37,972 nt of DNA from Porticoccaceae bacterium (GTDB lineage Bacteria; Pseudomonadota; Gammaproteobacteria; Pseudomonadales; Porticoccaceae). The translations under genes and the position numbers were made by a program. The notes below the pieces were generated by a model that saw only the letters and a list, made by a program, of their open reading frames with translations, did no database searches and was not told the DNA's origin. The stretch covers positions 1 to 37,972 of the forward strand of contig JAQWGK010000036.1 of NCBI GenBank assembly GCA_029238255.1. Direction: 5' to 3'. Shown one piece after another: positions 1 to 29,115 of this stretch. Within the stretch, counting starts at the first letter, position 1; each line of letters opens with the position of its first letter.

Positions 1-1151
1 CCGGCACCCATACTTAGATGATGGCGTTCAATACCTTTGTAATCTGCCCGCAGTCCAGCACGAGCATGCTGTTCAAAAATTTGCGGATTCCCTATTACAC
101 CCTCGGGAAAAGGCCCAAACAATGGCATACCAAATGGATCCAGAAAGGGTCCGGTTGAGCCCGGAGGATAGAGAATAAAGTTACCCTCAACTTCCTGAGA
201 GGTATCCAGATAGCTAGCCTGAAACTCAATAGTGGTATCGTCAAAAAGCTCTTTTTCTGTATAGGTGAAGTCCAGATTAAATCGCTCACTGGCAAACTTA
301 TTGGTTGGGTTTAGGGTTTCAGCAGCGCCGGCACCATCACCAATATCTTTTCGAATCTGGCCGCCCAGTCTTAGGCGCATATTTTTATAGAGGCCTTCGA
401 GCCTGATATCTACATTCTGCGCCGAGCGATTTACCGGGCCTGGCGCATTTGATACCGAGGTACCGGCAATAAAATCCAATATACTCTGAGCATCACTTTC
501 AATAATTTCATCGGTGCCATCGGTTTCGCCCAACTCAATTACCGCTGAATAGGCTAACTCACCTTTCTCGGCGGCAGCCGATAACCAGATATTCTTGGTA
601 CCGTAGTCGCCTAGGGTTGCGCCCGCAGAGTTATGCTCGATTTCTGCTGGGCCTTTGGTCACTAAATTAATCACGCCAGCAAAGGCATCGGCACCATAGA
701 GCGCAGAACCCGGGCCACGAATAACCTCTATTCGTGAAATAGCCTCAACGGGCATTCCTCCCCAGACAACATTTCGATCACCCTGAAATAAATTGGTAAT
801 GGGAATGCCATTAATTAGCATTAGCACCTGTGGATTAAAACCAGCACTAATACCTCGAAAAATATAAAGGGGATTGTATCCAATCACATCGCGGCTAACG
901 TGCAAACCGGGAACGGTTTCTAGAACCTGATCAATATCTTTGGCGCCCATTGCTTGAATTTGCTGTGCAGTGATAACTGAGGCCACTGCCGGAGCCTTGG
1001 CAATGGGTTGAACGCTACCAGTAGCAATGGAAACAAAATCCTCATCCCCATAAAAACCGGCAAAATCAAGATCGGAGTCGGGATTATCCTGACCCAGACT
1101 ATTAACCGAAGCCAGTCCCATAACTAAAAATACTGCATACCATTTATTCAT
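1..1151 (-). CDS. TonB-dependent outer-membrane receptor, N-terminal part (cut by window edge)
   Basis: About 383 residues are visible, in a frame that stays open to the left edge. The protein starts with a signal peptide (MNKWYAVFLVMGLASVNSLG, then QDN). A short linker containing EDFVSIATG is followed by a plug domain at about residues 55-165, with typical blocks: SVITAQQIQAMG, VLETVPGLHV, LMLINGIPI and IEVIRGPGSALYGADAFAGV. The rest is the beginning of the beta barrel. Such receptors use TonB energy to bring scarce, large or poorly diffusing substrates across the outer membrane; the substrate cannot be read from this part. The ATG overlaps the TGA of the upstream citrate-synthase-like gene as ATGA, so the receptor is probably translationally coupled and is the last visible gene of the operon starting at 4637. 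The receptor call is near certain; the substrate is unknown. Confidence 0.93.
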   Translation of the reverse strand, partial: MNKWYAVFLVMGLASVNSLGQDNPDSDLDFAGFYGDEDFVSIATGSVQPIAKAPAVASVITAQQIQAMGAKDIDQVLETVPGLHVSRDVIGYNPLYIFRGISAGFNPQVLMLINGIPITNLFQGDRNVVWGGMPVEAISRIEVIRGPGSALYGADAFAGVINLVTKGPAEIEHNSAGATLGDYGTKNIWLSAAAEKGELAYSAVIELGETDGTDEIIESDAQSILDFIAGTSVSNAPGPVNRSAQNVDIRLEGLYKNMRLRLGGQIRKDIGDGAGAAETLNPTNKFASERFNLDFTYTEKELFDDTTIEFQASYLDTSQEVEGNFILYPPGSTGPFLDPFGMPLFGPFPEGVIGNPQIFEQHARAGLRADYKGIERHHLSMGA

Positions 1152-1960
1152 GCTTTACACCTCCAGTGTCTGACCTGCTCAACGCCTTGATAATTAAGTC
1201 GAGAGGTTCGCAAGGGAAAAAAACCTCCCTCATGCTGCTTACATGCATCAATAAAACAGGGCATAGCTCCGGCGGTAAATGCCAAGGTTGCCATATGGTA
1301 AAAGTCCTCTGGACTTAACCCTTCGTCAGCCAACAATGCCGCGCATACTGCCGCGATATTGATCTGGTATTTAAGCCTGGTAGCGCTTAAATAGTCTTCC
1401 ACTTCAAAGGCCAACTTAACAAACTTGCCATTGCCGCAGCCAATTGAACGAGCAAACTCCATCATTGGTTTTACTCGTTCATCGGCATTCACTATAGGTC
1501 TTCCATAACCATATATACTCCGAAATTGTTTTAACTCTGCCTTGATAATCTGCTCTAAATTTTCACCCTTAGTTAGCCGTTGATCTGCGCGATATAAAAA
1601 ATCGGTTGCCCCTTTAATCGGCTTTAACCCATAAACTGTTGCCTCGGTTACTGCCAGCGCCCCCGCCGCTGCCAAAACCCCCGTTGATCGTGCTGTACCG
1701 GCCAACGCAGAGACTCGATTATTCCAAATCCGCGGATCGGGAAAGCTAGTGCAGATTACCCACATTGCCTCCAGCAATCGCGCAATCTTGGGTGACTCTT
1801 TACCGGTCGCTGCAAACAGTAGATATTCCATCCACGGTTTATCATTCAGTTCGGTAAAAACATCCTTACCTCGCAGTACGACTTTTTCATTAGGGAACCA
1901 GCCGCCCATTGAGGTTTGCCAATTATCCTCAAACTTCTCTAATTTACTGTGAACCGGCAT
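1148..1960 (-). CDS. Short citrate-synthase-fold protein (citryl-CoA lyase-like), paralog 1
   Basis: This 270-residue protein looks like the compact citryl-CoA lyase branch of the citrate synthase family. The supporting stretches are FPDPRIWNNRVSALAGTARS (about 73-92), the GYGRPIVNADERV block (151-163) and the C-terminal FFPLRTSRLNYQG. By eye the three citrate synthase catalytic positions are changed. The first His, of the HGG motif, falls at IKG (115-117). The second His, of the GFGH motif, is Arg154 in GYGRP. The Asp of the NVD motif is Asn201 in YQIN. The fold is therefore well supported but the reaction is not; it may bind CoA or an acyl-CoA, act with paralog 2, or do different chemistry. 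It lies 27 nt after paralog 2 and overlaps the TonB receptor start by 4 nt (ATGA). Confidence 0.8.
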   Translation of the reverse strand: MPVHSKLEKFEDNWQTSMGGWFPNEKVVLRGKDVFTELNDKPWMEYLLFAATGKESPKIARLLEAMWVICTSFPDPRIWNNRVSALAGTARSTGVLAAAGALAVTEATVYGLKPIKGATDFLYRADQRLTKGENLEQIIKAELKQFRSIYGYGRPIVNADERVKPMMEFARSIGCGNGKFVKLAFEVEDYLSATRLKYQINIAAVCAALLADEGLSPEDFYHMATLAFTAGAMPCFIDACKQHEGGFFPLRTSRLNYQGVEQVRHWRCKA

Positions 1961-1987
1961 ACAGTTTTTCCAAAAATTTAGTCGTAT

Positions 1988-2779
1988 TTACGGATTTAAT
2001 TTGAAGCCATCGGCAAAAAAGGGGAATTTGCGCCAACCCAGTTTTTCCTGCTCAAGTGAGTGAACCGCTGCCCCAGGCAAGCGTAATAATAGATAGAGCA
2101 TCTCTGCCTGTTCAGGCAAAAACCCCAGATCAGACAGCGCGGCAGCGGCAACTCCGGAAAAAGCCAGAGGGCATTTAGCACACGCCTCTAACTGCTCTCG
2201 ATTATCTTGAAGCCAAACTAGGTGAGGTGTCTGACCGACTTCGACCAGATGGGCCAGCGTTTTTAATACTGGTGTTGTACAGCTAATACCATTGGGGTCA
2301 AATCCCGGTGGGTGTTCCATGGGCAGCCACACATCCGCACGGCCCTCCTCCGGTGGACTGTTAATTATCTGCTGCCAGTCCTGAAGATTGATAGCGCAGC
2401 GCTGCCAGTAATCCATTGCATGAAAAACTTCCCGGGCACCGCCCAGATTACCTGCACCGACGGAGAGCGCAGCGATTAAAGCTGAGGCATGGGTTGAACC
2501 CCCAACACCGGCACTCATGGCAGCATTAACACTGTGATCCCGGGGGCCCGGGTTAGCCAGTGCAATAGCGAGCCCCTCGAGCAAGGCGGACTGTTGAGAA
2601 GTGGGTGGCTCTAATTTAAACAGTAGAAAGAGGTAATCAATAAAGCTGGCGTTTTTTAATAGGTCGCCATAGACATCATAGCCAGAGCAAAAACAGTCTG
2701 CCGCGGCAAAGGGATTATCTGCTTCTGGAGTTTCACGCCAAATTTTAGTGGTGATAGCTTCCGCAGAATCATTTGGCAT
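1988..2779 (-). CDS. Short citrate-synthase-fold protein (citryl-CoA lyase-like), paralog 2
   Basis: This is a 263-residue protein of the citrate synthase/citryl-CoA lyase fold, clearly divergent from its neighbour. Family-like blocks are ANPGPRDHSVNAAMSAGVGG (75-94), GAGNLGGAREVF (108-119) and RLPGAAVHSLEQ (233-244), the last matching the C-terminal helix of the family. Expected catalytic residues are not seen: the HGGA position reads LGGA (112-115), the GFGH position reads GFDPNG (159-164), and the NVD position falls in CPLAFSG (203-209). The ATG overlaps the end of the upstream thiamine-diphosphate enzyme gene by 11 nt, so the two are tightly co-translated. Two unlike citrate-synthase-type subunits in tandem suggest a hetero-oligomer. 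That is inference; a plain enzyme annotation would overreach. Confidence 0.75.
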   Translation of the reverse strand: MPNDSAEAITTKIWRETPEADNPFAAADCFCSGYDVYGDLLKNASFIDYLFLLFKLEPPTSQQSALLEGLAIALANPGPRDHSVNAAMSAGVGGSTHASALIAALSVGAGNLGGAREVFHAMDYWQRCAINLQDWQQIINSPPEEGRADVWLPMEHPPGFDPNGISCTTPVLKTLAHLVEVGQTPHLVWLQDNREQLEACAKCPLAFSGVAAAALSDLGFLPEQAEMLYLLLRLPGAAVHSLEQEKLGWRKFPFFADGFKLNP

Positions 2780-4637
2780 GATTTATTTTCAGTACATTTG
2801 TTCTCAGGGCAATCGGGGGCGCTTCATTTTGATCAATTCGAACATCCAGAACTGTGGGACCCTTTCGATTACAAATAGTTTTTATATCCAGACAATTAAG
2901 GTCTTCTGGTGAGCGAATAATATGGCCGGGCGCACCCATAGCATTAGCCATTGCAGCAAAATCTACACTGGCTAATGTATTGGCAATTGGCTCTGCTCCA
3001 GTCAGGCTTTGACCATGACGAACCATACCGTAGGCGCTGTCATTTAAAATAACAAAAACAATGGTTAGCTTTTCTTCAACCGCAACAGTGATCTCTTGAC
3101 CACTCATCAACCAACTACCATCACCGGTAATACAGACAACTGGAGTATCTGCAGTTGCCAAACTGGTTCCAACAGCACTACCAATAGCCCAGCCCATAGA
3201 GGCGAAGTCCATTGATGCACTAAACAACCCACCATGACCTCTCATTCCCGCAAGCCTTCTATCAAAAGGATGTAAATAGTGGGTACCCCATGCAAAGCTA
3301 TTACCTGAATCGGCCAAATAACGTGTGTGGGGCGGGAATAGTTTTGGTAAATCGTGCATTAAACGCTGCGGCTTAATTGGTATCGCATTTGAATAATAGG
3401 AGTCGATATCATCACATTCGAAATGCATACTCAGGCTCGCGGAAAACTCCTGTTCATTAAGGTCATGTGTTTGCTCAGCATCATCAGATACAGCTTTAAT
3501 CGTAAACTTGGGGTCGTGGTGATACTTGTGATCCAAATGACTAAAAATTGTCTCTAGACAACCTCTAACATGCAGCTTAGCCATCGGTGTTCTAGTCAAA
3601 TTAGCTTCCGTCGATTCAACGTGAATCAACTTGCCATTTAATAGATTGGTCGTGTCCCATGCATTACTTGAAAACTCTCCAAATCGAGCACCAATCGCAA
3701 CAACCAAATCAACCTCAGGATCGGCTAATAATCGTTTAGCTGAAGCATGCCCAGCAAACCCGATTACGCCCTTAAATAAAGGATGATAAGGGCTGACTAA
3801 ACCCTTTCCATGAGGCGTAACAAGAATTTCCGCATCAATTGCTGTGGCCAAACTTAGAATACTGACAATCGCATTACTGGCTTCATCTCCGACAATAAAA
3901 ACTGGCTTTTGCGCTTGAATAATCTCTTTGTAAAGTTTGCCTACCGCTTTTTCATCAATTAACTCAGGCCTATCCAATAAACTACCCAACTGATAATTAG
4001 CCTGTGAAATAGGTGTCGGCATAGCCATTACATCTCGGGGGATGCTGATATGTGCAGGCCCCGCTGGTGAGCCCAGCGCAGACATTATGGCTGCGGCTAA
4101 CTTATGTTCAAATTGGTCTATATGGGAAATCAGGGTGTTGTATCTGGTGCAGTGTTGGTAGAGCCCAACCGTGTTAACACCGGTACAGGAGGAATCTTGA
4201 ATAGCGCCTTTACCAAAGGTTGAAATGGCCGTTTGCGCGGTGATCACTAGCATTGGCACATTGTTTTCGTAGGCGGATGCCACGCCGGTAATCATATTGG
4301 TTGCGCCGGGGCCTGTGGTTGAACAGCAGACACCTAACTTACCGCTGTTTCTGGCATAGCCATCGGCCATAAAGGCCGCACCGGTTTCATGGCGGGCAAC
4401 CACGGCCCTTACGCCACCTCTTCGTTCACTGCGTGCCAACGCATCATAGAGTGGTTCAATTGCACCCCCGGGCACACCAAAAACATATTCCACCCCTAGC
4501 TGATCTAAATAGGCGACTAATAAATCGGCCATCTTGGGGCCAATTGTTGGAACAGCTTGAGTAGCGGCTCCCTTTTCCAACTCTTGATCTAGTTTGCGAT
4601 CCAATTTTTGATCCAACTCGTGATCTAGTTCTGTCAT
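2769..4637 (-). CDS. Thiamine-diphosphate-dependent carboligase/decarboxylase, acetolactate synthase large-subunit-like
   Basis: This 622-residue protein has the three-domain layout of the acetolactate synthase superfamily. The PYR domain (about 36-200) contains the cofactor-activating Glu84 in RHETGAAFMADGYAR. A central domain follows (about 220-355). The PP domain (about 420-600) carries the ThDP/Mg motif from GDG (505-507) to Asn532. Family members include acetolactate synthase, glyoxylate carboligase, oxalyl-CoA decarboxylase and sulfoacetaldehyde acetyltransferase; I cannot choose among them. No small regulatory subunit gene is adjacent, which argues against an ordinary branched-chain biosynthetic enzyme. 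The first 22 residues are an odd charged Leu-Asp tetrapeptide repeat. Met36 is an alternative start, but an AAGG eight bases before the upstream ATG supports 4637. First gene of the operon. Confidence 0.88.
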   Translation of the reverse strand: MTELDHELDQKLDRKLDQELEKGAATQAVPTIGPKMADLLVAYLDQLGVEYVFGVPGGAIEPLYDALARSERRGGVRAVVARHETGAAFMADGYARNSGKLGVCCSTTGPGATNMITGVASAYENNVPMLVITAQTAISTFGKGAIQDSSCTGVNTVGLYQHCTRYNTLISHIDQFEHKLAAAIMSALGSPAGPAHISIPRDVMAMPTPISQANYQLGSLLDRPELIDEKAVGKLYKEIIQAQKPVFIVGDEASNAIVSILSLATAIDAEILVTPHGKGLVSPYHPLFKGVIGFAGHASAKRLLADPEVDLVVAIGARFGEFSSNAWDTTNLLNGKLIHVESTEANLTRTPMAKLHVRGCLETIFSHLDHKYHHDPKFTIKAVSDDAEQTHDLNEQEFSASLSMHFECDDIDSYYSNAIPIKPQRLMHDLPKLFPPHTRYLADSGNSFAWGTHYLHPFDRRLAGMRGHGGLFSASMDFASMGWAIGSAVGTSLATADTPVVCITGDGSWLMSGQEITVAVEEKLTIVFVILNDSAYGMVRHGQSLTGAEPIANTLASVDFAAMANAMGAPGHIIRSPEDLNCLDIKTICNRKGPTVLDVRIDQNEAPPIALRTNVLKINHAK

Positions 4638-4698
4638 CTTTTTGCCTTATAAAATAGCGACATACAAAGAGGTCTTAATCCTTTTTTTATTAAACTCA

Positions 4699-4727
4699 GT
4701 AATAGATCAAGAATTCTGTATTGGCAA
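4699..4727 (-). promoter_or_regulatory. Candidate sigma-70 promoter of the ThDP/citrate-synthase-like/receptor operon
   Basis: On the minus strand TTGCCA (4722-4727) is followed after exactly 17 bases by TATTAC (4699-4704), about 60 bases before the ATG at 4637. The -35 matches five of six consensus bases, the -10 four of six. The spacer between the two divergent genes is AT-rich. No operator for a neighbouring regulator was recognised. Confidence 0.45.
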
Positions 4728-4843
4728 TAAAATATTCTTCACTGGCAGGCTTTTTGGCTTTATTAATTGCTGCCATTATGGACAGCTGATATTCAGTGGT
4801 TACAATGCCTACCCTATTAACCAAATGATCCCTATTGATTGCT

Positions 4844-5569
4844 ATGGACGAAATCAAAGATACCCATCCGACGCCTGAACAAAAAGAACCCAAGAAGGAA
4901 AGCCTGCTTTTAAATCTGGCCTTTAATATAGCCATACCAACGCTGGTGCTTACCAAGCTTAGCGGTGATGACTATCTGGGTATTAAGCTGGCTATTGTGG
5001 TGGCTCTCTCTTTCCCGATTATTTACGGTATTAGAGATTTCTTTAGCCGCGGCAAAATCAATTTCTTCTCCGCTCTGGGTGTGGCCAGTGTTTCGATGAC
5101 TGGTGGCATTAGCCTAATGGAGCTGGATGCGGTTTATATCGCCATTAAAGAGGCGAGTATTCCGGGTCTGTTTGGTGTGGCTACCCTGGTTTCTCTAAAA
5201 ACCTCTCAGCCTTTAATTCATACGTTTTTACTCAATGACTCAATTCTTGAGACCGATAAAATAAACGCTGCTCTCAAGGCCAATAAGCGTGAGGCTGAGT
5301 TTGATCAGCTGCTAATCAATGCCTCATGGATACTCGCCGGTTCGTTTTTGCTCTCAGCGGTTTTGAATTATGTTCTTGCGGTTTATTTGCTCACGGCAGC
5401 TCCAGGAACTGTCGAGTTTAACGAGCAACTCGGCAAGATGACGGCGCTTAGTTTTCCGGTTATTGCCGTCCCTGCAATGCTGGTGATGATTGGCGATATG
5501 TTTTATCTATTTAGCGGTATTAAGCGCTTGACCGGTATTCCTCTTGAAGAAATCGTAAAACAAAAATAA
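4844..5569 (+). CDS. VC0807-type multipass inner-membrane protein
   Basis: The protein has about 241 residues with an acidic/charged N-terminus and roughly six hydrophobic segments. The pattern (LLLNLAFNIAIPTLVLTKLSGDDYLG, YGIRDFF, KINFFSALGVASVSMTGGISLMELD, IKEASIPG, FGVATLVSLKT) is that of the widespread VC0807 family, which resembles septation protein A (YciB). Members are uncharacterised; a role at the inner membrane is all that can be said. A TTG nine bases upstream (4835) is in frame, but the ATG is preferred; neither has a convincing Shine-Dalgarno sequence. The next gene is a YciI protein, and the YciB-like plus YciI pairing is common in related bacteria. Confidence 0.8.
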   Translation: MDEIKDTHPTPEQKEPKKESLLLNLAFNIAIPTLVLTKLSGDDYLGIKLAIVVALSFPIIYGIRDFFSRGKINFFSALGVASVSMTGGISLMELDAVYIAIKEASIPGLFGVATLVSLKTSQPLIHTFLLNDSILETDKINAALKANKREAEFDQLLINASWILAGSFLLSAVLNYVLAVYLLTAAPGTVEFNEQLGKMTALSFPVIAVPAMLVMIGDMFYLFSGIKRLTGIPLEEIVKQK

Positions 5570-5638
5570 CCGGGCTTTTAAAATACGAGTCTTTATCAAC
5601 AGGAATCTATAACAAAAGCCCCAAACAGGATAAAAAAT

Positions 5639-5938
5639 ATGTGGTACGCAATTATCAGTGAAGATGTAGACAACAGTCTGGATAAACGCCTGCAGGCACG
5701 ACCTGCTCATCTGGAGCGATTACAGGATTTAAAGAATGATGGCCGCCTATTTGTCGCTGGTCCACACCCAGCTATAGATGCACTGGACCCCGGCGAAGCC
5801 GGTTTTACTGGCAGTCTGGTGATCGCTGAATTTGATAGTCTGGCAGATGCTCAACAGTGGGCCGATGCAGACCCCTATATGGATGCCGGTGTCTATAAGC
5901 AGGTGACCGTGAAACCTTTCAAGAAAGTTCTTCCCTAA
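5639..5938 (+). CDS. YciI family protein
   Basis: This 99-residue protein carries the compact ferredoxin-like YciI domain over its whole length. The start [10 protein letters not shown], the RPAHLERL segment containing His24 (equivalent to the conserved family His) and the C-terminal [20 protein letters not shown] are characteristic. The family resembles muconolactone isomerase and dehydrochlorinase folds; E. coli YciI has no settled biological function. An AGGA about ten bases before the ATG supports the start. It lies 69 nt after the VC0807-type gene and is followed by a perfect 11-bp hairpin. Confidence 0.9.
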
Positions 5939-5949
5939 TACTTGGTTTA

Positions 5950-5976
5950 GGCGGCAAATGGTTATCATTTGCCGCC
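5950..5976. other. Perfect 11-bp stem-loop after the YciI gene
   Basis: GGCGGCAAATG (5950-5960) and CATTTGCCGCC (5966-5976) are exact reverse complements around the 5-base loop GTTAT. There is no T-run on either side, so it is not a standard intrinsic terminator. It lies between the YciI stop and the SH3 gene start and could be an mRNA 3'-end stabiliser, a processing site or a weak attenuator. Confidence 0.8.
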
Positions 5977-6022
5977 GATCAGAGTATTATCCCCCCTTCT
6001 CAAACTGATCATTTTAAATCCC

Positions 6023-6739
6023 ATGAATTATCTATTTTTGGCAATCTCTGTTTTCGCCCTTTCCCTAAGCAGCAATGCTTTTGCTGAAGAATCCGTAGAA
6101 GATGCGGTTTCAGTTGAAAAGGTCTACCCGCAGGAAAAAACGGTTTACGTTAGCGATGAGTTTCTTGTGCCGCTGCGCGAAACACCCTGCTCTCGCTGTA
6201 CCATTGTGCACCGCGGTATTAAAACCGGCAGCAAAATGCGCCTGTTGGAAGAGGTTGATGGCTGGGCTCACCTGATCACGGCCAGAGGAACTGAAGGTTG
6301 GATGGAAGCTCAGTATCTGGTTGACGAACCAATTGCGCGGATAAAATTGAATCAGCAGCAAAAAGAACTGGCTACGCTTAAGAAGCGTAATACTGAGCTG
6401 GAAAGAAACTACAATGAGTTGCGTGAAGAGTCGAAAGCACTGCGTGACCAGTTGGATAACTCACTGGGTGACAATGAGACTGTGGCTCGCGAGCTGGCGG
6501 AAATAAGAACTATCTCCTCGGACGCTATTGCCCTTAACCAACAGAATGAACAGCTGGTTAAGAATAATCATATGCTGCAGCGCGAGAACGATGCCTTAAA
6601 AGCCAATGTTGATGACTTGCAGAAAGATAAGCGCAATGAGTCTTTCCTGTATGGCGGTCTAACCGTATTTTTGGGCGCTATTCTGGTTATCCTGATTCCT
6701 AAACTGCGCGGCAGAAAGCGTTTTTCAGAGTGGCAGTAG
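6023..6739 (+). CDS. SH3-domain, coiled-coil membrane-anchored periplasmic protein (TIGR04211/YgiM type)
   Basis: With the ATG at 6023 the protein has 238 residues. It starts with a signal peptide (MNYLFLAISVFALSLSSNAFA), then a bacterial SH3 domain at about 35-105 (VYVSDEFLVPLRETPCSRC, GWAHLITARGTEGWMEAQYL). A long charged coiled coil runs over about 112-210, and a C-terminal membrane helix (FLYGGLTVFLGAILVILIP) is followed by a basic tail. This is the layout of the YgiM/TIGR04211 group: a periplasmic sensor or scaffold anchored in the inner membrane. An in-frame TTG at 5969 would add 18 residues and bury the signal peptide, so it is rejected. Function of the family is not established. Confidence 0.85.
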   Translation: MNYLFLAISVFALSLSSNAFAEESVEDAVSVEKVYPQEKTVYVSDEFLVPLRETPCSRCTIVHRGIKTGSKMRLLEEVDGWAHLITARGTEGWMEAQYLVDEPIARIKLNQQQKELATLKKRNTELERNYNELREESKALRDQLDNSLGDNETVARELAEIRTISSDAIALNQQNEQLVKNNHMLQRENDALKANVDDLQKDKRNESFLYGGLTVFLGAILVILIPKLRGRKRFSEWQ

Positions 6740-6768
6740 AGAGTCGTTAAAAAACTTAAGAGGTAGTA

Positions 6769-7509
6769 ATGAAAAGAGCTGTTGTTTTACTTTTTGCATT
6801 AGTCGCAGGATCCTTACTACTTACCTCTTCTGCATTTGCCGAGCAGGTCACCGCTGACAAGGCTGTTCTTGAAAAGACAGGCGCTAAAATGAAAGGCGCT
6901 GTAGAGAAAGGCGCTACAGAGAAAGACTTAGAGAACCCAAGAGTAAAACTGTCCACCGAAATGGGCGATATTGTTCTTGAACTGTACGCCGATAAAGCGC
7001 CCATCAGCGTCGATAACTTTATTAAAAACACCAACAACTATCATTATGACGGCCTGATCTTTCATCGGGTTATCAAGGGTTTTATGATCCAGTCCGGTGG
7101 CCATACCTTTGATATGAGCTTCCGTGAGTCTGACCGCGAGCCAATTGTTAATGAATCCCATAATGGTCTGAGTAATATCCGTGGCAGCATTGCTATGGCG
7201 CGTATTGCAGATCCCGATAGCGCAAAGGCACAGTTTTTTATCAACCATAAAACCAATCAACGCCTCGATGCCACGGCTTCAAGACCGGGCTATACGGTTT
7301 TCGGCGGGGTTGTTTCAGGTATTGAGGTTGTCGATGCTATAGCGGCTGTGAAGGTGCGTTCGATGGGTTTCTATCAGGATGTTCCGGTAACGCCAATTCG
7401 TATTCTTAAAGCGCGGCTGCTAAATCCAAATGCATGGACAGCGCTGCCAGAACCAAAACCAGAAACTATTGAACCGGCCTACGAAATGCCGGTTCCCCTA
7501 AATAGATAA
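6769..7509 (+). CDS. Exported cyclophilin-type peptidyl-prolyl isomerase
   Basis: The protein has 246 residues with a cleavable signal peptide (MKRAVVLLFALVAGSLLLTSSAFA). A Lys/Glu-rich linker (about 25-55) precedes a cyclophilin domain at about 57-220. The domain shows YDGLIFHRVIKGFMIQSGG with the catalytic Arg, GSIAMAR, and SAKAQFFINHKTN. It should catalyse cis-trans isomerisation of prolyl bonds in the periplasm, like PpiA. The linker and a proline-rich C-terminal tail make it longer than E. coli PpiA (190). A good ribosome site (AGAGGTAG) precedes the ATG. Its TAA overlaps the pdxJ ATG by one base. Confidence 0.92.
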   Translation: MKRAVVLLFALVAGSLLLTSSAFAEQVTADKAVLEKTGAKMKGAVEKGATEKDLENPRVKLSTEMGDIVLELYADKAPISVDNFIKNTNNYHYDGLIFHRVIKGFMIQSGGHTFDMSFRESDREPIVNESHNGLSNIRGSIAMARIADPDSAKAQFFINHKTNQRLDATASRPGYTVFGGVVSGIEVVDAIAAVKVRSMGFYQDVPVTPIRILKARLLNPNAWTALPEPKPETIEPAYEMPVPLNR

Positions 7510-8261
7510 TGACTATGACTGCACTCAGTATTAATCTCAATAAAGTCGCCCTGATCCGCAATTCTCGTGAGGGTAATTATCCGGATGTGGTCGAGCATGC
7601 CAAAGTCTGCATTGCCAATGGTGCCGATGGTATTACGGTTCACCCGCGCCCCGACCAGCGCCATATCCGCCCGGATGATGTGCGTCGATTGGCGGCACTG
7701 GTTAAGCCCATCGAGACTGTTGAATTTAATATTGAAGGCAACCCCTTTGCCCCGGCGGTAGGCAGCTACCCGGGCTTTATTGAATTGGTTAAAGAGACTA
7801 ATCCCGATCAGTGCACACTGGTGCCCGATGGGGATGACCAGCTGACCTCTGACCACGGTTTTGATTTGCATAGCTCAGGGGAGCAATTACGACCCATTAT
7901 CCAGCAGCTTCACGCGCTGGGAATGCGCGTCAGCCTGTTTATGGATCCGGATCTTGAGCAGATTAAACTGGCTGCAGAGATCGGTGCCGATCGTATCGAA
8001 CTCTATACTGGCCCCTACGCCGCAGTCTGGGGCAGCGAGCATTTAGAGGCCAATTTTCAGGCGCATTTTGCTGCCGCTGAACTGGCGACCAGTCTGGGGA
8101 TGGGAGTTAATGCTGGCCACGATCTAAATCTGGATAATCTGGCCAAGTTTGCCAGTATTCCAAGTCTGCTTGAGGTCTCTATTGGCCATGCCTTTACCGT
8201 CGATTCACTGGCGATGGGAATGCCAAAAGCGGTGCAGGCCTACAAAGCGCTGCTCGGCTAA
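7509..8261 (+). CDS. pdxJ: Pyridoxine 5'-phosphate synthase
   Basis: The 250 residues match PdxJ throughout: LSINLNKVALIRNSREGNYPD, GITVHPRPDQRHIRPDDV, FNIEGNP, QCTLVPD, VSLFMDPD, RIELYTGPYA, GVNAGHDLNLDNL and VSIGHA. It condenses 1-deoxy-D-xylulose 5-phosphate with 3-amino-2-oxopropyl phosphate to pyridoxine 5'-phosphate, the last ring-forming step of vitamin B6 synthesis, in the cytoplasm. The stop and start overlap with the upstream cyclophilin gene (TAATG) implies translational coupling. In enterics and pseudomonads pdxJ follows recO, so this placement is different. Confidence 0.97.
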   Translation: MTMTALSINLNKVALIRNSREGNYPDVVEHAKVCIANGADGITVHPRPDQRHIRPDDVRRLAALVKPIETVEFNIEGNPFAPAVGSYPGFIELVKETNPDQCTLVPDGDDQLTSDHGFDLHSSGEQLRPIIQQLHALGMRVSLFMDPDLEQIKLAAEIGADRIELYTGPYAAVWGSEHLEANFQAHFAAAELATSLGMGVNAGHDLNLDNLAKFASIPSLLEVSIGHAFTVDSLAMGMPKAVQAYKALLG

Positions 8262-8264
8262 ACC

Positions 8265-9173
8265 TTGGTTCAGGGCAAAACACCACTCACCCTCTCCTGT
8301 ATAGGCGCAGGGCGCGCTGGCAAAACTCTCTGCCGGCTATTTGCCGAACAGCAATGCAGGTTTGAAATTTCTATTGGACAGATCATCAATCGCTCTAGGG
8401 CTTCGGCTCAAGAGGCGGTGACATTTATTGGTCAGGGCCAACCCGGGGAAGGCTTTGAAAACCTGTCCCCAGCCAATATCTGGTTGATAGCAAGCCCTGA
8501 TGATGCCATTTCAGCGGTCAGTGAACGTCTTTCTGAATCTGGCGTGCTGCGCAAAGGGGATATTGTTTTTCACTGTAGCGGTTCCCTTAGCTCAGATAAT
8601 CTCTCAACGGCTACAGATATTGCATATCGCGCCTCGGTGCATCCAATACATAGCTTTGCCGACCCCCAAAACTCTCTGCATAACTTTTCCACAACGGCCT
8701 GCGCGATTGAAGGGGATCAACAGGCGAGCGCTATTTTAACGGAGCTGTTTACTGCAATTGGCGGTCACTGTTTTGCGCTGGATGCTGATAAGAAAGCCCT
8801 CTATCATGCGGCCACGGTTATGGCGTCGAACAATCTGGTCAGTCTTCTCAGTCTTAGCCAACAGCTATTAGAGGCGGCCGGTATAGAGACTCAGGGCGGC
8901 GAGAATATTCTCCAGTCACTGGCGGAAAATAGCCTCAACAACTATTTCAATACTGATGGAATAGCCGCGCTAACCGGGCCTATTTCCCGTGGCGATAGTA
9001 AAACCATAAAAGCTCATATAGAGAGCTTAAAAGAGTATCCCGACGGGCTGAAAGTTTATGCCAGTTTGGGGGAGATTGCCGTTGGTCTATCGGCACAGCA
9101 GGGCTATGCCAATAGCGAACAGCTAGTCACCATATCCCGCTTCCTAAATGCGGTTAAAAAGAATAAAAACTGA
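8265..9173 (+). CDS. Rossmann-like plus DUF2520 domain protein (putative NAD(P) oxidoreductase)
   Basis: The 302-residue protein has an N-terminal nucleotide-binding fold (LSCIGAGRAGKTLCRLF, a GxGxxG-like loop at about 13-18). The pieces NIWLIASPDDAI and DIVFHCSGSLSS precede SVHPIHSFADPQ. A helical C-terminal domain of the DUF2520 type starts near residue 160 (ALYHAATVMASNNLVSLLSL, LTGPISRGD). The architecture resembles ketopantoate or 6-phosphogluconate reductases, but the substrate is unknown. The start is a TTG three bases after the pdxJ stop; no better start is seen nearby. Confidence 0.85.
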   Translation: MVQGKTPLTLSCIGAGRAGKTLCRLFAEQQCRFEISIGQIINRSRASAQEAVTFIGQGQPGEGFENLSPANIWLIASPDDAISAVSERLSESGVLRKGDIVFHCSGSLSSDNLSTATDIAYRASVHPIHSFADPQNSLHNFSTTACAIEGDQQASAILTELFTAIGGHCFALDADKKALYHAATVMASNNLVSLLSLSQQLLEAAGIETQGGENILQSLAENSLNNYFNTDGIAALTGPISRGDSKTIKAHIESLKEYPDGLKVYASLGEIAVGLSAQQGYANSEQLVTISRFLNAVKKNKN

Positions 9174-9183
9174 GTAACTATTG

Positions 9184-9960
9184 ATGAATCAAACTGACAG
9201 CCCTGAGTATCTGGCTAAAAAATCATTCTTTAATCGTCTGATTACCGTCTATGGCCGCAAGCCGGTTCTGGAAATACTCTCAGATAGCAGTCTGGAAATT
9301 TTTCGCCTGCATCTCGCCGAGTCCAATCGTGGCGGGGGGATTGTCGAACAGATCAAAACTCTGGCTGCCCAGCGCAATATTGAGATCTGCTATCACAGCC
9401 GTGAGCAGTTGGCGCGTATCTCGCGCAATAGCAAGCAGGATCAGGGTGTGGCCTGTGATATTCACTGTCAGGGCTATGAACCTTATGAACAGGCCTTAGA
9501 ACAGCTTCCCGCGCCCTCTCAGCGACCTCTAATTGCGGTGGACGGTATTACTAATCCACAGAATCTGGGCATGATTGTGCGCAGTGTGACCGCCAGTCCC
9601 GCCCATGGACTGCTGTTGCCAACCAAGGGCTGTGCAGATATTGGCCCACTGGTGATCAAGGCCAGTGCCGGCACTCTGTTTAAGGGAAATATTCTGCGCT
9701 GTGATTCTCTCGCCCGTGCGCTTAGGGCATTTAAAGATAAAGGCTTCGAAATCTGCACCCTCTCTTCACATCAGGCTACTCCCCTCGGAGAGTTTAAACC
9801 TTCAGCACCGGTTATCTATGTACTGGGCAATGAGACGGAGGGTGTCAGTAAAGAGATTGCGGCGCTGAGTGATCATCGGGTGGGCATTCCCATGGCCAAT
9901 GGTGTGGAGTCACTCAATGTAGCGATTACTGCGGCTTTAATTGCTTTTAACGGCCTTTAA
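9184..9960 (+). CDS. SpoU/TrmH family RNA methyltransferase
   Basis: About 258 residues. An N-terminal substrate-binding domain (GRKPVLEILSD; about 22-100, like the L30e-type domain of RlmB) precedes the SPOUT catalytic domain. The three SPOUT motifs are present: motif 1 GITNPQNLGMIVRS (about 122-135), motif 2 VIYVLGNETEGVS and motif 3 IPMANGVESLNVAITAAL, which form the knotted S-adenosylmethionine site. Members 2'-O-methylate rRNA or tRNA; the target here cannot be fixed. A TTG directly before the ATG (9181) is ignored. The stop lies at the edge of a 23-bp tandem repeat filling the gap to the convergent MFS gene. Confidence 0.9.
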   Translation: MNQTDSPEYLAKKSFFNRLITVYGRKPVLEILSDSSLEIFRLHLAESNRGGGIVEQIKTLAAQRNIEICYHSREQLARISRNSKQDQGVACDIHCQGYEPYEQALEQLPAPSQRPLIAVDGITNPQNLGMIVRSVTASPAHGLLLPTKGCADIGPLVIKASAGTLFKGNILRCDSLARALRAFKDKGFEICTLSSHQATPLGEFKPSAPVIYVLGNETEGVSKEIAALSDHRVGIPMANGVESLNVAITAALIAFNGL

Positions 9961-26036: not shown

Positions 26037-27713
26037 ATGCAGCTAGCCAGCTTTGATGATCACTCCTCTTCGTCCCCAAGATTACTGCGCCTCTATGCCA
26101 GTTACCGACTATTTTTATCCAGTCTGCTGCTGTGGCTCGTGCAGTTCGACTTTGCACCGGCCTATCTCGGCAGTGACAACCCCAGTCTATTCTCAATTAC
26201 CGCCACGGCTTATATAGCAGCAACTCTGATCAGCCTGCCCCTATTCTATCTGCGCCGCTGGCAACCCAGTGAAACCGCACTGTTTGCCATGCTGCTGGTC
26301 GATATTATCGCGATCAATCTTATGATGGTTGCCTCCGGCGGCCTGGCCGGTTCTGTGGGTTACTTGCTAATGGTCACTGTGGCCGCCTCAGCGACTTTTT
26401 TGCGCACCCAACTGGCACTGTCGATGGCCGCTATCGCCAGCTTTATTCCGGTATCTGTCAGCCTCTCGGAATTTATGCTCAATGGTGCCGACGAGTCCGG
26501 TGTTGTCCGCAGCGGTATCTTTGGCATTTTATTGTTCGCCACTGCGGTAATCTTTATCTTCCTCACCAAACGCCTGACCATGGTTCAGGCATTGGCCAAA
26601 AGTGAGGCTCAAGCCGCCACGCGACTGCAACATCTAAATGATCTGGTAATTAATAAAATGCTTACCGGCATTGTTGTTTTCGATGCTGATTTTCGAATTG
26701 AACAGCTCAATGATCGAGCCTCCCTGTTGCTCGGATCTGTCGACGGTGAAAAACTGCTGGCTCGGGGTGACTCACTCAGTCAAGTTCCAGCGCTGGTCAA
26801 CTACTACCGCGACTGGAAAGCCAACCCCTACAGACAGCTGCCCAACTATCATTCACCGAGCTCGGATATTCCCCTACAGATCAGCTTTAGTGAAGTAATC
26901 GGCGATGCGTTTAACAACAGTATTCATAAAAAAATTCGCGATACGATTATGTTTATCGAGGATGCACGAACCCTGTCGCAACATGCTCAACAGTTAAAAA
27001 ATAGCTCACTGGGGCAGCTCACATCGAGCATTGCCCATGAAGTGCGCAACCCGCTCGGTGCCATTAGCCATGCAGCTCAGTTACTCAATGAATCCCAGCT
27101 ACCCGATCAGGATCAACAGCTGGTCGATGTCGTGTTGAGACACAGCACCAGAGTCGATCAATTAGTCCGCGATATTCTGCAACTGTCGCGACAGAAAACC
27201 CCGCAAATTGAAATTACTAATATCTATGAAAACTGTCAGCTCAGCAAAACCCAGCTCGAAGAGAGCAGACAGTTTGAGAATCCAACTATTGAGATCGATA
27301 GCTCGGCACAGACTGTCAGCGCCCCCTTTGATAGTAGCCAATTGCAACAGGTGCTGATCAACCTATTAAGCAATGCCCTGCGCCACTCGGCGTTGGAGAC
27401 CGGCAAGCCCTGGGCTGAGATTAAGTTTGATTATCAACAGGATATGGGGCTGCCGATGCTAAAAATTTATGACCGTGGTTCGGGGGTTGCCAGCAACAAT
27501 CGAAATAAAATATTCGAGCCCTTTTTTACCACCGAAAATCAGGGCACCGGTCTGGGTTTATACATCGCCCGCGAACTTTGTGAAATCAACTTCGCTACAC
27601 TAAGCTATGTATACAGGGGCTCGTCGGATAACTACTTTCAAATAGTTTTTTCCGACCCAGCCAAGCAACTGCCAAGGAATGCAGCTAATGAAAAAAACCG
27701 TTCTGATCATTGA
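26037..27713 (+). CDS. pilS: Sensor histidine kinase PilS
   Basis: The 558-residue protein has about six N-terminal membrane helices (about 20-180) and a cytoplasmic PAS-like segment (about 205-300, NKMLTGIVVFDADFRIEQLNDRASLLLG). A HisKA domain carries the phosphorylated His334 in SIAHEVRNPLGAISHAAQLL, followed by a HATPase_c domain with NLLSNALRHS, YDRGSGV and TENQGTGLGLYIA. Six helices plus PAS and pairing with PilR identify PilS, which in Pseudomonas senses PilA in the membrane and phosphorylates PilR. Its end overlaps pilR by 26 nt. Confidence 0.95.
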   Translation: MQLASFDDHSSSSPRLLRLYASYRLFLSSLLLWLVQFDFAPAYLGSDNPSLFSITATAYIAATLISLPLFYLRRWQPSETALFAMLLVDIIAINLMMVASGGLAGSVGYLLMVTVAASATFLRTQLALSMAAIASFIPVSVSLSEFMLNGADESGVVRSGIFGILLFATAVIFIFLTKRLTMVQALAKSEAQAATRLQHLNDLVINKMLTGIVVFDADFRIEQLNDRASLLLGSVDGEKLLARGDSLSQVPALVNYYRDWKANPYRQLPNYHSPSSDIPLQISFSEVIGDAFNNSIHKKIRDTIMFIEDARTLSQHAQQLKNSSLGQLTSSIAHEVRNPLGAISHAAQLLNESQLPDQDQQLVDVVLRHSTRVDQLVRDILQLSRQKTPQIEITNIYENCQLSKTQLEESRQFENPTIEIDSSAQTVSAPFDSSQLQQVLINLLSNALRHSALETGKPWAEIKFDYQQDMGLPMLKIYDRGSGVASNNRNKIFEPFFTTENQGTGLGLYIARELCEINFATLSYVYRGSSDNYFQIVFSDPAKQLPRNAANEKNRSDH

Positions 27714-29115
27714 TGACGAACTGGATTTACGCGAGTTACTAAAACTGACACTTGCCAAAATGGGTATAGATTCAACGGCCGTAGAAACCGTAAAAGAAGC
27801 TGTATCTGCCTTGCAAGAAAACACTTTTGATCTCTGTTTAACCGATATGCGACTTCCCGATGGCAATGGACTGGAGCTGGTCGACCATGTTTCAAAAAAC
27901 TATCCGCAGCTGCCAATTGCGGTGCTCACCGCCTACGGCAATGTCGATCTGGCCGTCGACGCACTTAAACTCGGTGCCTTTGATTTCCTCTCTAAACCTG
28001 TCGAACTATCGCGACTGCGCGCACTGATTACCAATGCCCTAAATCTCCCCACTGAAAGCCCTAGTCAGAAGCGTCCCTCTAAGGGGAAATCTGCAGACAA
28101 CAGCGATGTATCCCTACTACTGGGCGACTCCAAAATTATGGCGGATATTCGCCAGCAAATTGGCAAGGTGGCCCGCAGTCAGGCACCGATGTTTATCAGT
28201 GGTGAATCCGGCACCGGCAAGGAGCTAGCGGCTCGTTCAATCCATGGCTTAAGCTCAAGAGCGGCTGGACCATTTATACCGGTTAACTGCGGCGCGATCC
28301 CCGCCAATCTTGTGGAATCGGAATTCTTTGGTCATCGCAAAGGCAGTTTTACCGGTGCCTTTGAAGATAAACAGGGACTCTTTCAAGCGGCCAATGGCGG
28401 CACCCTATTTTTGGATGAGGTAGCTGATCTACCACTGGATATGCAGGTTAAATTACTCCGCGCTATACAGGAGAAGCGGATTCGTCCGGTGGGTTCAGAG
28501 ACTGAAATTGATGTGGATGTGCGACTGATCAGCGCCACCCATAAAAACCTTCAGGATGCGGTAACCCGCGGAGCCTTTCGCAGTGATTTATTTTACCGGC
28601 TCAATGTTATTGATATTCATATGCCTAGCCTGCGTCAGCGACCCGCAGATACTGCCATATTGGCAGAGCATATTCTCGGCCGACTCAACACTGATAATAA
28701 AAAGATTAGCCTCTCACCCGGCGCATTAAATGCGCTGGCCAATTACAGCTTTCCCGGCAATGTCAGAGAGCTGGAAAATATCCTTGAGCGAGCCTGTACC
28801 TTATGCGAGAACAGCCGAATTGAACTGGAAGATTTAAAGCTTAATCCGGCGGCGGCCCTCACCACTGACCCACAGGGAGAGGCCCAAACAAAACAGCAAT
28901 ATAAAGATATCAAAACCTCCAACCCGTCGGTGAGATTGGATAGTCGAATTCCGGTTAGCTCTCTGGATGATCATCTTGAGGAAATTGAAAAAGAGATTCT
29001 CATTGAAACTCTGGAGAAGGCGCGCTGGAATAAAACCGAAGCGGCAAAAAAGCTCGGCATTAGTTTTCGCTCTATTCGCTACCGATTGGAAAAGCTTGGG
29101 CTTAATGACGAGTAG
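27688..29115 (+). CDS. pilR: Sigma-54-dependent response regulator PilR
   Basis: With the ATG at 27688 the protein has 475 residues. It has a receiver domain (1-120; phospho-acceptor Asp53 in LTDMRLPDG), then an AAA+ domain with Walker A GESGTGKE and the sigma-54 contact loop GSFTGAF (consensus GAFTGA, first A replaced by S). LFLDEVADLPLDMQVKLLRA follows, then a Fis-type helix-turn-helix (WNKTEAAKKLGISFRSIRYRLEKLGL). In relatives it activates pilA transcription. AAGGA nine bases before this ATG supports it over the ATG at 27679. It overlaps pilS and faces pilY1 with only 21 bases between the stops. Confidence 0.95.
   Translation: MKKTVLIIDDELDLRELLKLTLAKMGIDSTAVETVKEAVSALQENTFDLCLTDMRLPDGNGLELVDHVSKNYPQLPIAVLTAYGNVDLAVDALKLGAFDFLSKPVELSRLRALITNALNLPTESPSQKRPSKGKSADNSDVSLLLGDSKIMADIRQQIGKVARSQAPMFISGESGTGKELAARSIHGLSSRAAGPFIPVNCGAIPANLVESEFFGHRKGSFTGAFEDKQGLFQAANGGTLFLDEVADLPLDMQVKLLRAIQEKRIRPVGSETEIDVDVRLISATHKNLQDAVTRGAFRSDLFYRLNVIDIHMPSLRQRPADTAILAEHILGRLNTDNKKISLSPGALNALANYSFPGNVRELENILERACTLCENSRIELEDLKLNPAAALTTDPQGEAQTKQQYKDIKTSNPSVRLDSRIPVSSLDDHLEEIEKEILIETLEKARWNKTEAAKKLGISFRSIRYRLEKLGLNDE

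Follow-up and report, generated by a model that had tools for sequence, protein, structure and literature searches.

The window analysed here is an entire contig of 37,972 bases (C45, JAQWGK010000036.1) from the 2.2-Mb draft genome of a Porticoccaceae bacterium. It carries part of a six-gene operon in which an enzyme dependent on thiamine diphosphate (ThDP) is followed by two proteins with the citryl-CoA lyase fold, here called CS1 and CS2, and by a TonB-dependent receptor. Our main finding is that this operon is widespread, that its three enzyme genes are kept together, and that the CS pair has lost the catalytic machinery of citrate synthase. The unit and the remodelled pair are well supported, whereas the product and the signalling role are inferred. 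The trio may make a small molecule which the receptor imports and which a binding protein and a kinase then detect, with cyclic di-GMP (c-di-GMP) as the output, a reading that we prefer while placing it a little short of an even chance.

In 132 of the 135 loci read, CS2 immediately follows CS1 on the same strand. Of the other three, one has CS1 alone (L032), one has CS2 alone (L110), and L038 is not a member of the family. The spacing is operon-like, with a median of -4 bases both between the ThDP and CS1 genes (84 pairs) and between CS1 and CS2 (114 pairs), and of 3 bases between CS2 and the receptor gene. Two fusions were found, each in a single record: ThDP enzyme and CS1 form one chain of 886 amino acids (aa) in L196 (JACQPQ010000047.1), and CS1 and CS2 one chain of 539 aa in L216 (PQAG01000064.1), where the sequence has ambiguous residues. 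A tandem array, CS1-CS2-CS1-CS2-CS2, was seen in a Rhodocyclales record (L211, 6363-9848), and another locus (L111, 7078-17883) has two ThDP and two TonB receptor genes around one CS pair.

The wider gene set was counted starting from 128 loci in which a CS2 gene had been called. Dereplication at 90% reduced these to 108, and 71 of them had 7 kb of sequence to either side. Among these 71 full-context loci, the ThDP gene was present in 67, the receptor in 68 and both in 65, a binding protein in 56 and a kinase or GGDEF/EAL gene in 63; all four kinds lay within 7 kb in 56. Receptors of this kind accounted for 101, and binding proteins for 61, of the 631 genes within 4 kb, but each for only a single gene among the 302 controls more than 7 kb away. 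The profiles for these two kinds of protein were derived from the same neighbourhoods, and these counts cover those families, not all receptors. Chance adjacency is excluded by the 65 loci with both ThDP enzyme and receptor against the single receptor in the distant-gene control. An earlier note on this DNA had named adjacency of the four genes in this genome alone as grounds for refuting its reading; their co-occurrence, like that of the CS pair, reaches far beyond close relatives. Open reading frames were called by a simple greedy rule that missed some starts and overlapping genes, and in L117 and L193 the rule gave no CS protein although the CS pair is present. L038 is counted among the 133 neighbourhood loci, but it is a weak match (62 bits).

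The set is found in many bacteria from water and sediment, across Gamma- and Betaproteobacteria. A scan of named species genomes gave 294 CS2 relatives among 312 pattern matches, and the best 80 of the 294, which were examined, include SAR92, Porticoccus, Shewanella salipaludis, Cycloclasticus, Exilibacterium, Methylococcaceae, Gallionella, Sideroxydans, Sulfuricella, Herbaspirillum, Noviherbaspirillum, Pelotalea and one Planctomycetota record. In an even sample of the order, the CS1 profile matched at E <= 0.001 in 95 of 390 genomes; by hand count, 47 of these matches exceed 100 bits, the window's own included, and the 48 weaker ones are probably mostly other citrate-synthase-fold proteins. 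The class sample gave a CS2 profile match in 40 of 274, 30 of them above 200 bits (hand count, window's own included). Spread on plasmids was considered and set aside, since the plasmid collection contained no CS2 match. A typical copy also sits on a 3.7-kb contig labelled Flavobacteriales (L156, JAESST010000209.1), which is probably mis-binned.

All four minus-strand genes that the earlier note described are present in the window (Table 1), and its spacing was correct: neighbouring genes overlap by 11 bases (2769-2779) and 4 bases (1148-1151), with a gap of 27 bases (1961-1987) between CS1 and CS2. The single candidate promoter it had placed before them was not supported. In a scan of positions 4400-5000 the minus strand had no sigma-70 promoter; the plus strand had one, where 1.1 are expected by chance on both strands together. 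The contig breaks off within the receptor gene, and another contig of the same genome, C27, opens with the genes for the binding protein and the hybrid kinase. This agrees with the gene order in relatives with unbroken contigs, which is receptor, PF04392 binding protein, hybrid kinase. At 4835-9960, upstream of the operon and in divergent orientation, lies a block of plus-strand genes. The same block is found at loci of the window's genus and of Porticoccus, which indicates that the operon occupies a fixed site there.

Table 1. Genes of the operon in the window and on contig C27
Feature	Position	Strand	Remarks
ThDP-dependent C-C bond enzyme, acetolactate-synthase superfamily	2769-4637	minus	622 aa
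CS1, citryl-CoA-lyase-fold protein, first of near-obligate pair	1988-2779	minus	263 aa
CS2, citryl-CoA-lyase-fold protein	1148-1960	minus	270 aa
TonB-dependent receptor, N-terminal part with plug domain	3-1151	minus	383 aa; gene cut by contig end
Visible part of the six-gene operon	1-4637	minus	rest on C27:1058-6563, same genome
PF04392 binding protein	C27:1058-1984		83% identity to L026 copy
Hybrid kinase with GGDEF and EAL	C27:2013-6563		90% identity to L026 copy

The Pfam matches above cut-off are three ThDP domains in the ThDP enzyme and Plug in the receptor, and neither CS1 nor CS2 matched any Pfam family at E 0.1. The NCBIfam citryl-CoA lyase models match them weakly, CS1 with 46.1 of 245 bits and CS2 with 48.9 of 193. 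The fold is seen in the predicted structures (mean pLDDT, the model confidence, 89.6 and 88.4), for which the best matches of both proteins are citryl-CoA lyases or the lyase modules of ATP-citrate lyase. The catalytic residues were compared in 53 of 64 CS2 and 40 of 41 CS1 sequences, dereplicated and drawn from the window and the named loci, the omitted rows being 11 of CS2 and the fused CS1 of L196. Not one of the three, the His of HGGA, the His of GYGH and the Asp of NVDG, is kept in any of the 53 CS2 or 40 CS1 rows. Around GYGH, HMMER and MAFFT align CS1 differently, but neither places a His there, and a near-invariant His156 stands two columns away. Since the residues are gone in every aligned row, an ordinary citrate synthase or citryl-CoA lyase is unlikely, and with the NCBIfam cut-offs missed as well we reject this assignment. 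Thus, the earlier note was right about the citrate-synthase fold, but not if this is taken to mean the ordinary enzymes. The DPR motif, by contrast, retains its Arg (Arg162) in all 53 rows of CS2, and the ancestral active-site positions are occupied by Arg154 in all 53, Cys235 in 52 and Tyr110 in 50. Such a pattern suggests remodelling of the site and not decay. The pair also differs from the citryl-CoA lyase 6hxp and the ATP-citrate lyase module in consisting of two distinct paralogs side by side, in addition to the missing His, His and Asp.

The ThDP enzyme shares with the acetolactate synthases IlvB and IlvI the domain order, the catalytic Glu (Glu84) and the cofactor motif GDG...N (GDG 505-507, Asn532), all present and conserved. 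Its scores are below the acetolactate synthase cut-offs among the best 25 of 58 NCBIfam families, 297.5 of 538.35 bits for TIGR00118 and 291.9 of 509 for NF006187. In a tree of 29 rows, 20 of the 21 rows of the ThDP family form one clade with support 100/100, set apart both from the Escherichia coli enzymes IlvB, IlvI, Gcl and PoxB and from an IlvI-type paralog that this genome has on contig C54. The remaining row, L201 from Pelotalea, groups with BbmA. Deep branches of this tree are weak and several rows are long; L197_17, a c2 member with 26% identity to the window, and redundant c2 members were left out of the tree and of alignment A4 behind it. The FDDR motif is important in acetolactate synthase. 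It is present in IlvB, IlvI and the C54 paralog, but absent from all 21 family rows, and 20 of the 21 have 'HG' at the position of 'QQ' or 'QW' in IlvB and IlvI. A biosynthetic acetolactate synthase is therefore rejected on the separate clade, the missed cut-offs and the absence of FDDR. The earlier note had named firm grouping with biosynthetic IlvB/IlvG as refuting its reading; in the tree the enzyme does not group with IlvB or IlvI.

The nearest solved relatives by profile, among the best 60 of 149 matches, are BbmA with 502 bits and CsmA with 435, while the best acetolactate synthase has 367. The tree is not fully in line with this, as only L201 joins BbmA, and CsmA meets Oxc where both are long branches. 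CsmA and BbmA are described as structural homologs of CybE, which is reported to condense two 2-oxo acids in the pathway to the furanolide cyanobacterin before CybF uses an acyl-CoA (PMC12395478; that paper writes BpmA where the PDB entry has BbmA, and we treat the two as the same protein). The operon resembles the cyb pair in combining a ThDP acyloin enzyme from the same region of the superfamily with a second enzyme, which in cyb uses acyl-CoA (PMC12395478, PMC8777810). The likeness has its limits. CybF is called a 3-oxoacyl-ACP synthase in PMC8777810, which rejects it as a protein of citrate-synthase fold; the cyb gene functions in the passages cited include no receptor or sensor; and the ThDP family of the operon is a clade of its own, compared with CybE by description. 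Acyloin-type chemistry is likely for the ThDP enzyme. Because of the profile relatives, the reported CybE/CybF chemistry and the absence of FDDR, an acyloin or alpha-hydroxy-beta-keto acid is the best guess for its product. A described pathway with this composition was not recognised in the earlier note, and none appeared in our literature searches, which covered open-licence papers as listings and passages.

The receptor is about 710 aa in relatives, with plug and barrel. In NCBIfam it comes closest to models of haem and siderophore receptors, though every score is below cut-off, and there is no STN signalling domain among its Pfam hits, which means that a relay in the periplasm is needed. 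The PF04392 binding protein is about 309 aa; the copy in the complete operon of L026 starts like a signal peptide and is weakly similar to the tryptophan-binding protein TrpX (40.4 bits against a cut-off of 390), and no ABC permease stands beside it in that operon. The kinase is about 1,500 aa in relatives, with HAMP, HisKA, HATPase, receiver, Hpt, GGDEF and EAL domains and a weak sCache_4 match, and that of the window's genome carries GGDEF and EAL-type motifs. By simple patterns, GGDEF-like and EAL-like motifs are both found in 60 of 91 complete sensor proteins from three clusters. Hybrid kinases of the BarA type, and sensory sets of TonB receptor, binding protein and GGDEF protein, are known systems. 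The operon kinase is like them in its domains from HAMP to Hpt and in the weak sCache_4 match, and unlike them in ending in GGDEF and EAL and in sharing an operon with a biosynthetic-looking trio. With a receptor that lacks a signalling domain, no permease and no transporter recurring across lineages among the annotated neighbour clusters, the simplest wiring is that the periplasmic domain of the kinase reads the ligand. Two further plus-strand frames in the window (within 26037-29115; C45:27009-27590 and 27697-28209) match the kinase and the receiver/Hpt regions of the operon kinase.

In the mechanism that we propose, the ThDP enzyme would decarboxylate one 2-oxo acid and join the acyl unit to a second 2-oxo acid or another carbonyl, giving an acyloin or alpha-hydroxy-beta-keto acid as reported for its relatives CybE and CsmA. 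CS1 and CS2 would be a heteromeric partner of citrate-synthase fold with a rebuilt active site, which may take over this product, probably with an acyl-CoA, or hold and channel it. Some lineages might then decorate it by reduction, carbamoylation, sulfation or amidation. The released molecule would be concentrated into the periplasm through the TonB receptor and bound by the binding protein, and the sensor kinase would read the bound molecule and, by its phosphorelay, set the GGDEF/EAL activity and hence c-di-GMP.

The main rival is the uptake-and-metabolism pathway of the earlier note, in a version where the operon is catabolic and has its own sensor. The receptor would import a scarce compound for cleavage or rearrangement by the ThDP enzyme and the CS pair, while the binding protein and kinase would signal its presence through c-di-GMP. 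We regard this as unlikely, but not far-fetched. TonB receptors usually import, the sensor genes adjoin the trio, and the ThDP superfamily has lyases; benzaldehyde lyase, with 256 bits, and 2-hydroxyacyl-CoA lyase, with 240, score well below the 502 of BbmA among the same best 60 matches, and the best relatives are biosynthetic. An inner-membrane transporter is also missing from the lineage-recurrent genes in the annotated neighbour clusters, an annotation that left out most single neighbours as well as c16 and c17, two clusters found downstream of the operon in the window's genus. The annotated accessory genes mostly add groups, and this favours synthesis over degradation, but such genes are few. 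Annotated from one representative of each, they are a short-chain dehydrogenase/reductase in 12 of 133 loci (in-operon in 8), a carbamoyltransferase in 3 loci, two of which are the same contig, a sulfotransferase in 2 loci, in each case lying between receptor and CS1, and an asparagine synthase in 3 loci (in-operon in 1). Tailoring-type genes inside a few operons thus favour making the compound rather than breaking it. Of the uptake and C-C bond route of the earlier note, the conserved operon of ThDP enzyme, CS-fold pair and receptor is borne out. The PF04392 binding protein and GGDEF-EAL hybrid kinase now added suggest that, besides uptake, the operon serves sensing and signalling.

The CS pair could also be non-catalytic, a scaffold or a sensor of CoA or 2-oxo acids that controls the ThDP enzyme, which alone would make the product; this can be combined with the other readings. 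The loss of all three catalytic residues in every aligned row argues for it, and the ThDP-CS1 fusion fits a regulatory or structural subunit, but the remodelled-looking residues that CS2 keeps, with the DPR Arg in every row, speak against it and we hold it to be quite improbable. It is conceivable, lastly, that the locus serves a metallophore, the trio making a small alpha-hydroxy-acid chelator whose metal complex returns through the receptor. Citrate synthases serve citrate-type siderophores, alpha-hydroxy acids bind iron, and the haem and siderophore models come closest to the receptor. Neither a siderophore synthetase nor a metal importer is among the annotated recurrent neighbour clusters, however, and the adjacent regulator is a kinase of c-di-GMP type, so that we give this the smallest chance of the alternatives.

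Several observations weigh against synthesis and sensing of a small molecule by the operon itself. No product is known for it, no exporter recurs in the gene set, and the tailoring-type genes occur in few loci only. A TonB receptor with a binding protein and kinase next to it could just as well serve to detect a foreign nutrient. Six of the 71 full-context loci lack the ThDP enzyme, the receptor or both (L100, L102, L109, L110, L116 and L185), a kinase/GGDEF/EAL gene of this kind is absent within 7 kb in 8 and the binding protein in 15, and 31 of the 91 sensor proteins show at most one of the two simple patterns, GGDEF-like and EAL-like. The family is also patchy, with CS1 in 10 of 34 genomes of the same genus besides the window's own, and some copies of the operon are broken. 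In same-genus L025, L030/L151, L032 and L039/L140 there are split or overlapping frames, an in-frame stop, or loss after CS1, which suggests recent loss or assembly error.

Synthesis by the trio followed by uptake and sensing is still the reading that we prefer. A quorum-sensing or autoinducer system would encode its synthase together with a cognate receptor, and the enzymes, receptor, binding protein and sensor that share 7 kb in 56 of the 71 loci may or may not be cognate in this sense. Taken further, the reading would describe a new bacterial communication system, with a three-protein synthase (the ThDP enzyme and a heteromeric CS-fold partner that has a new active site) for an acyloin-derived, possibly aromatic signal, reception by TonB receptor, binding protein and c-di-GMP kinase, and lineage-specific carbamoyl, sulfo, amide or reductive tailoring; in this full form it is a possibility that we consider doubtful. 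If true, it would imply that many uncultured bacteria of marine, freshwater and sediment habitats have a small-molecule signal that has gone unrecognised, received by a TonB-dependent route of its own and passed on as c-di-GMP, and that a ThDP enzyme has acquired a two-part partner derived from the citrate synthase fold.

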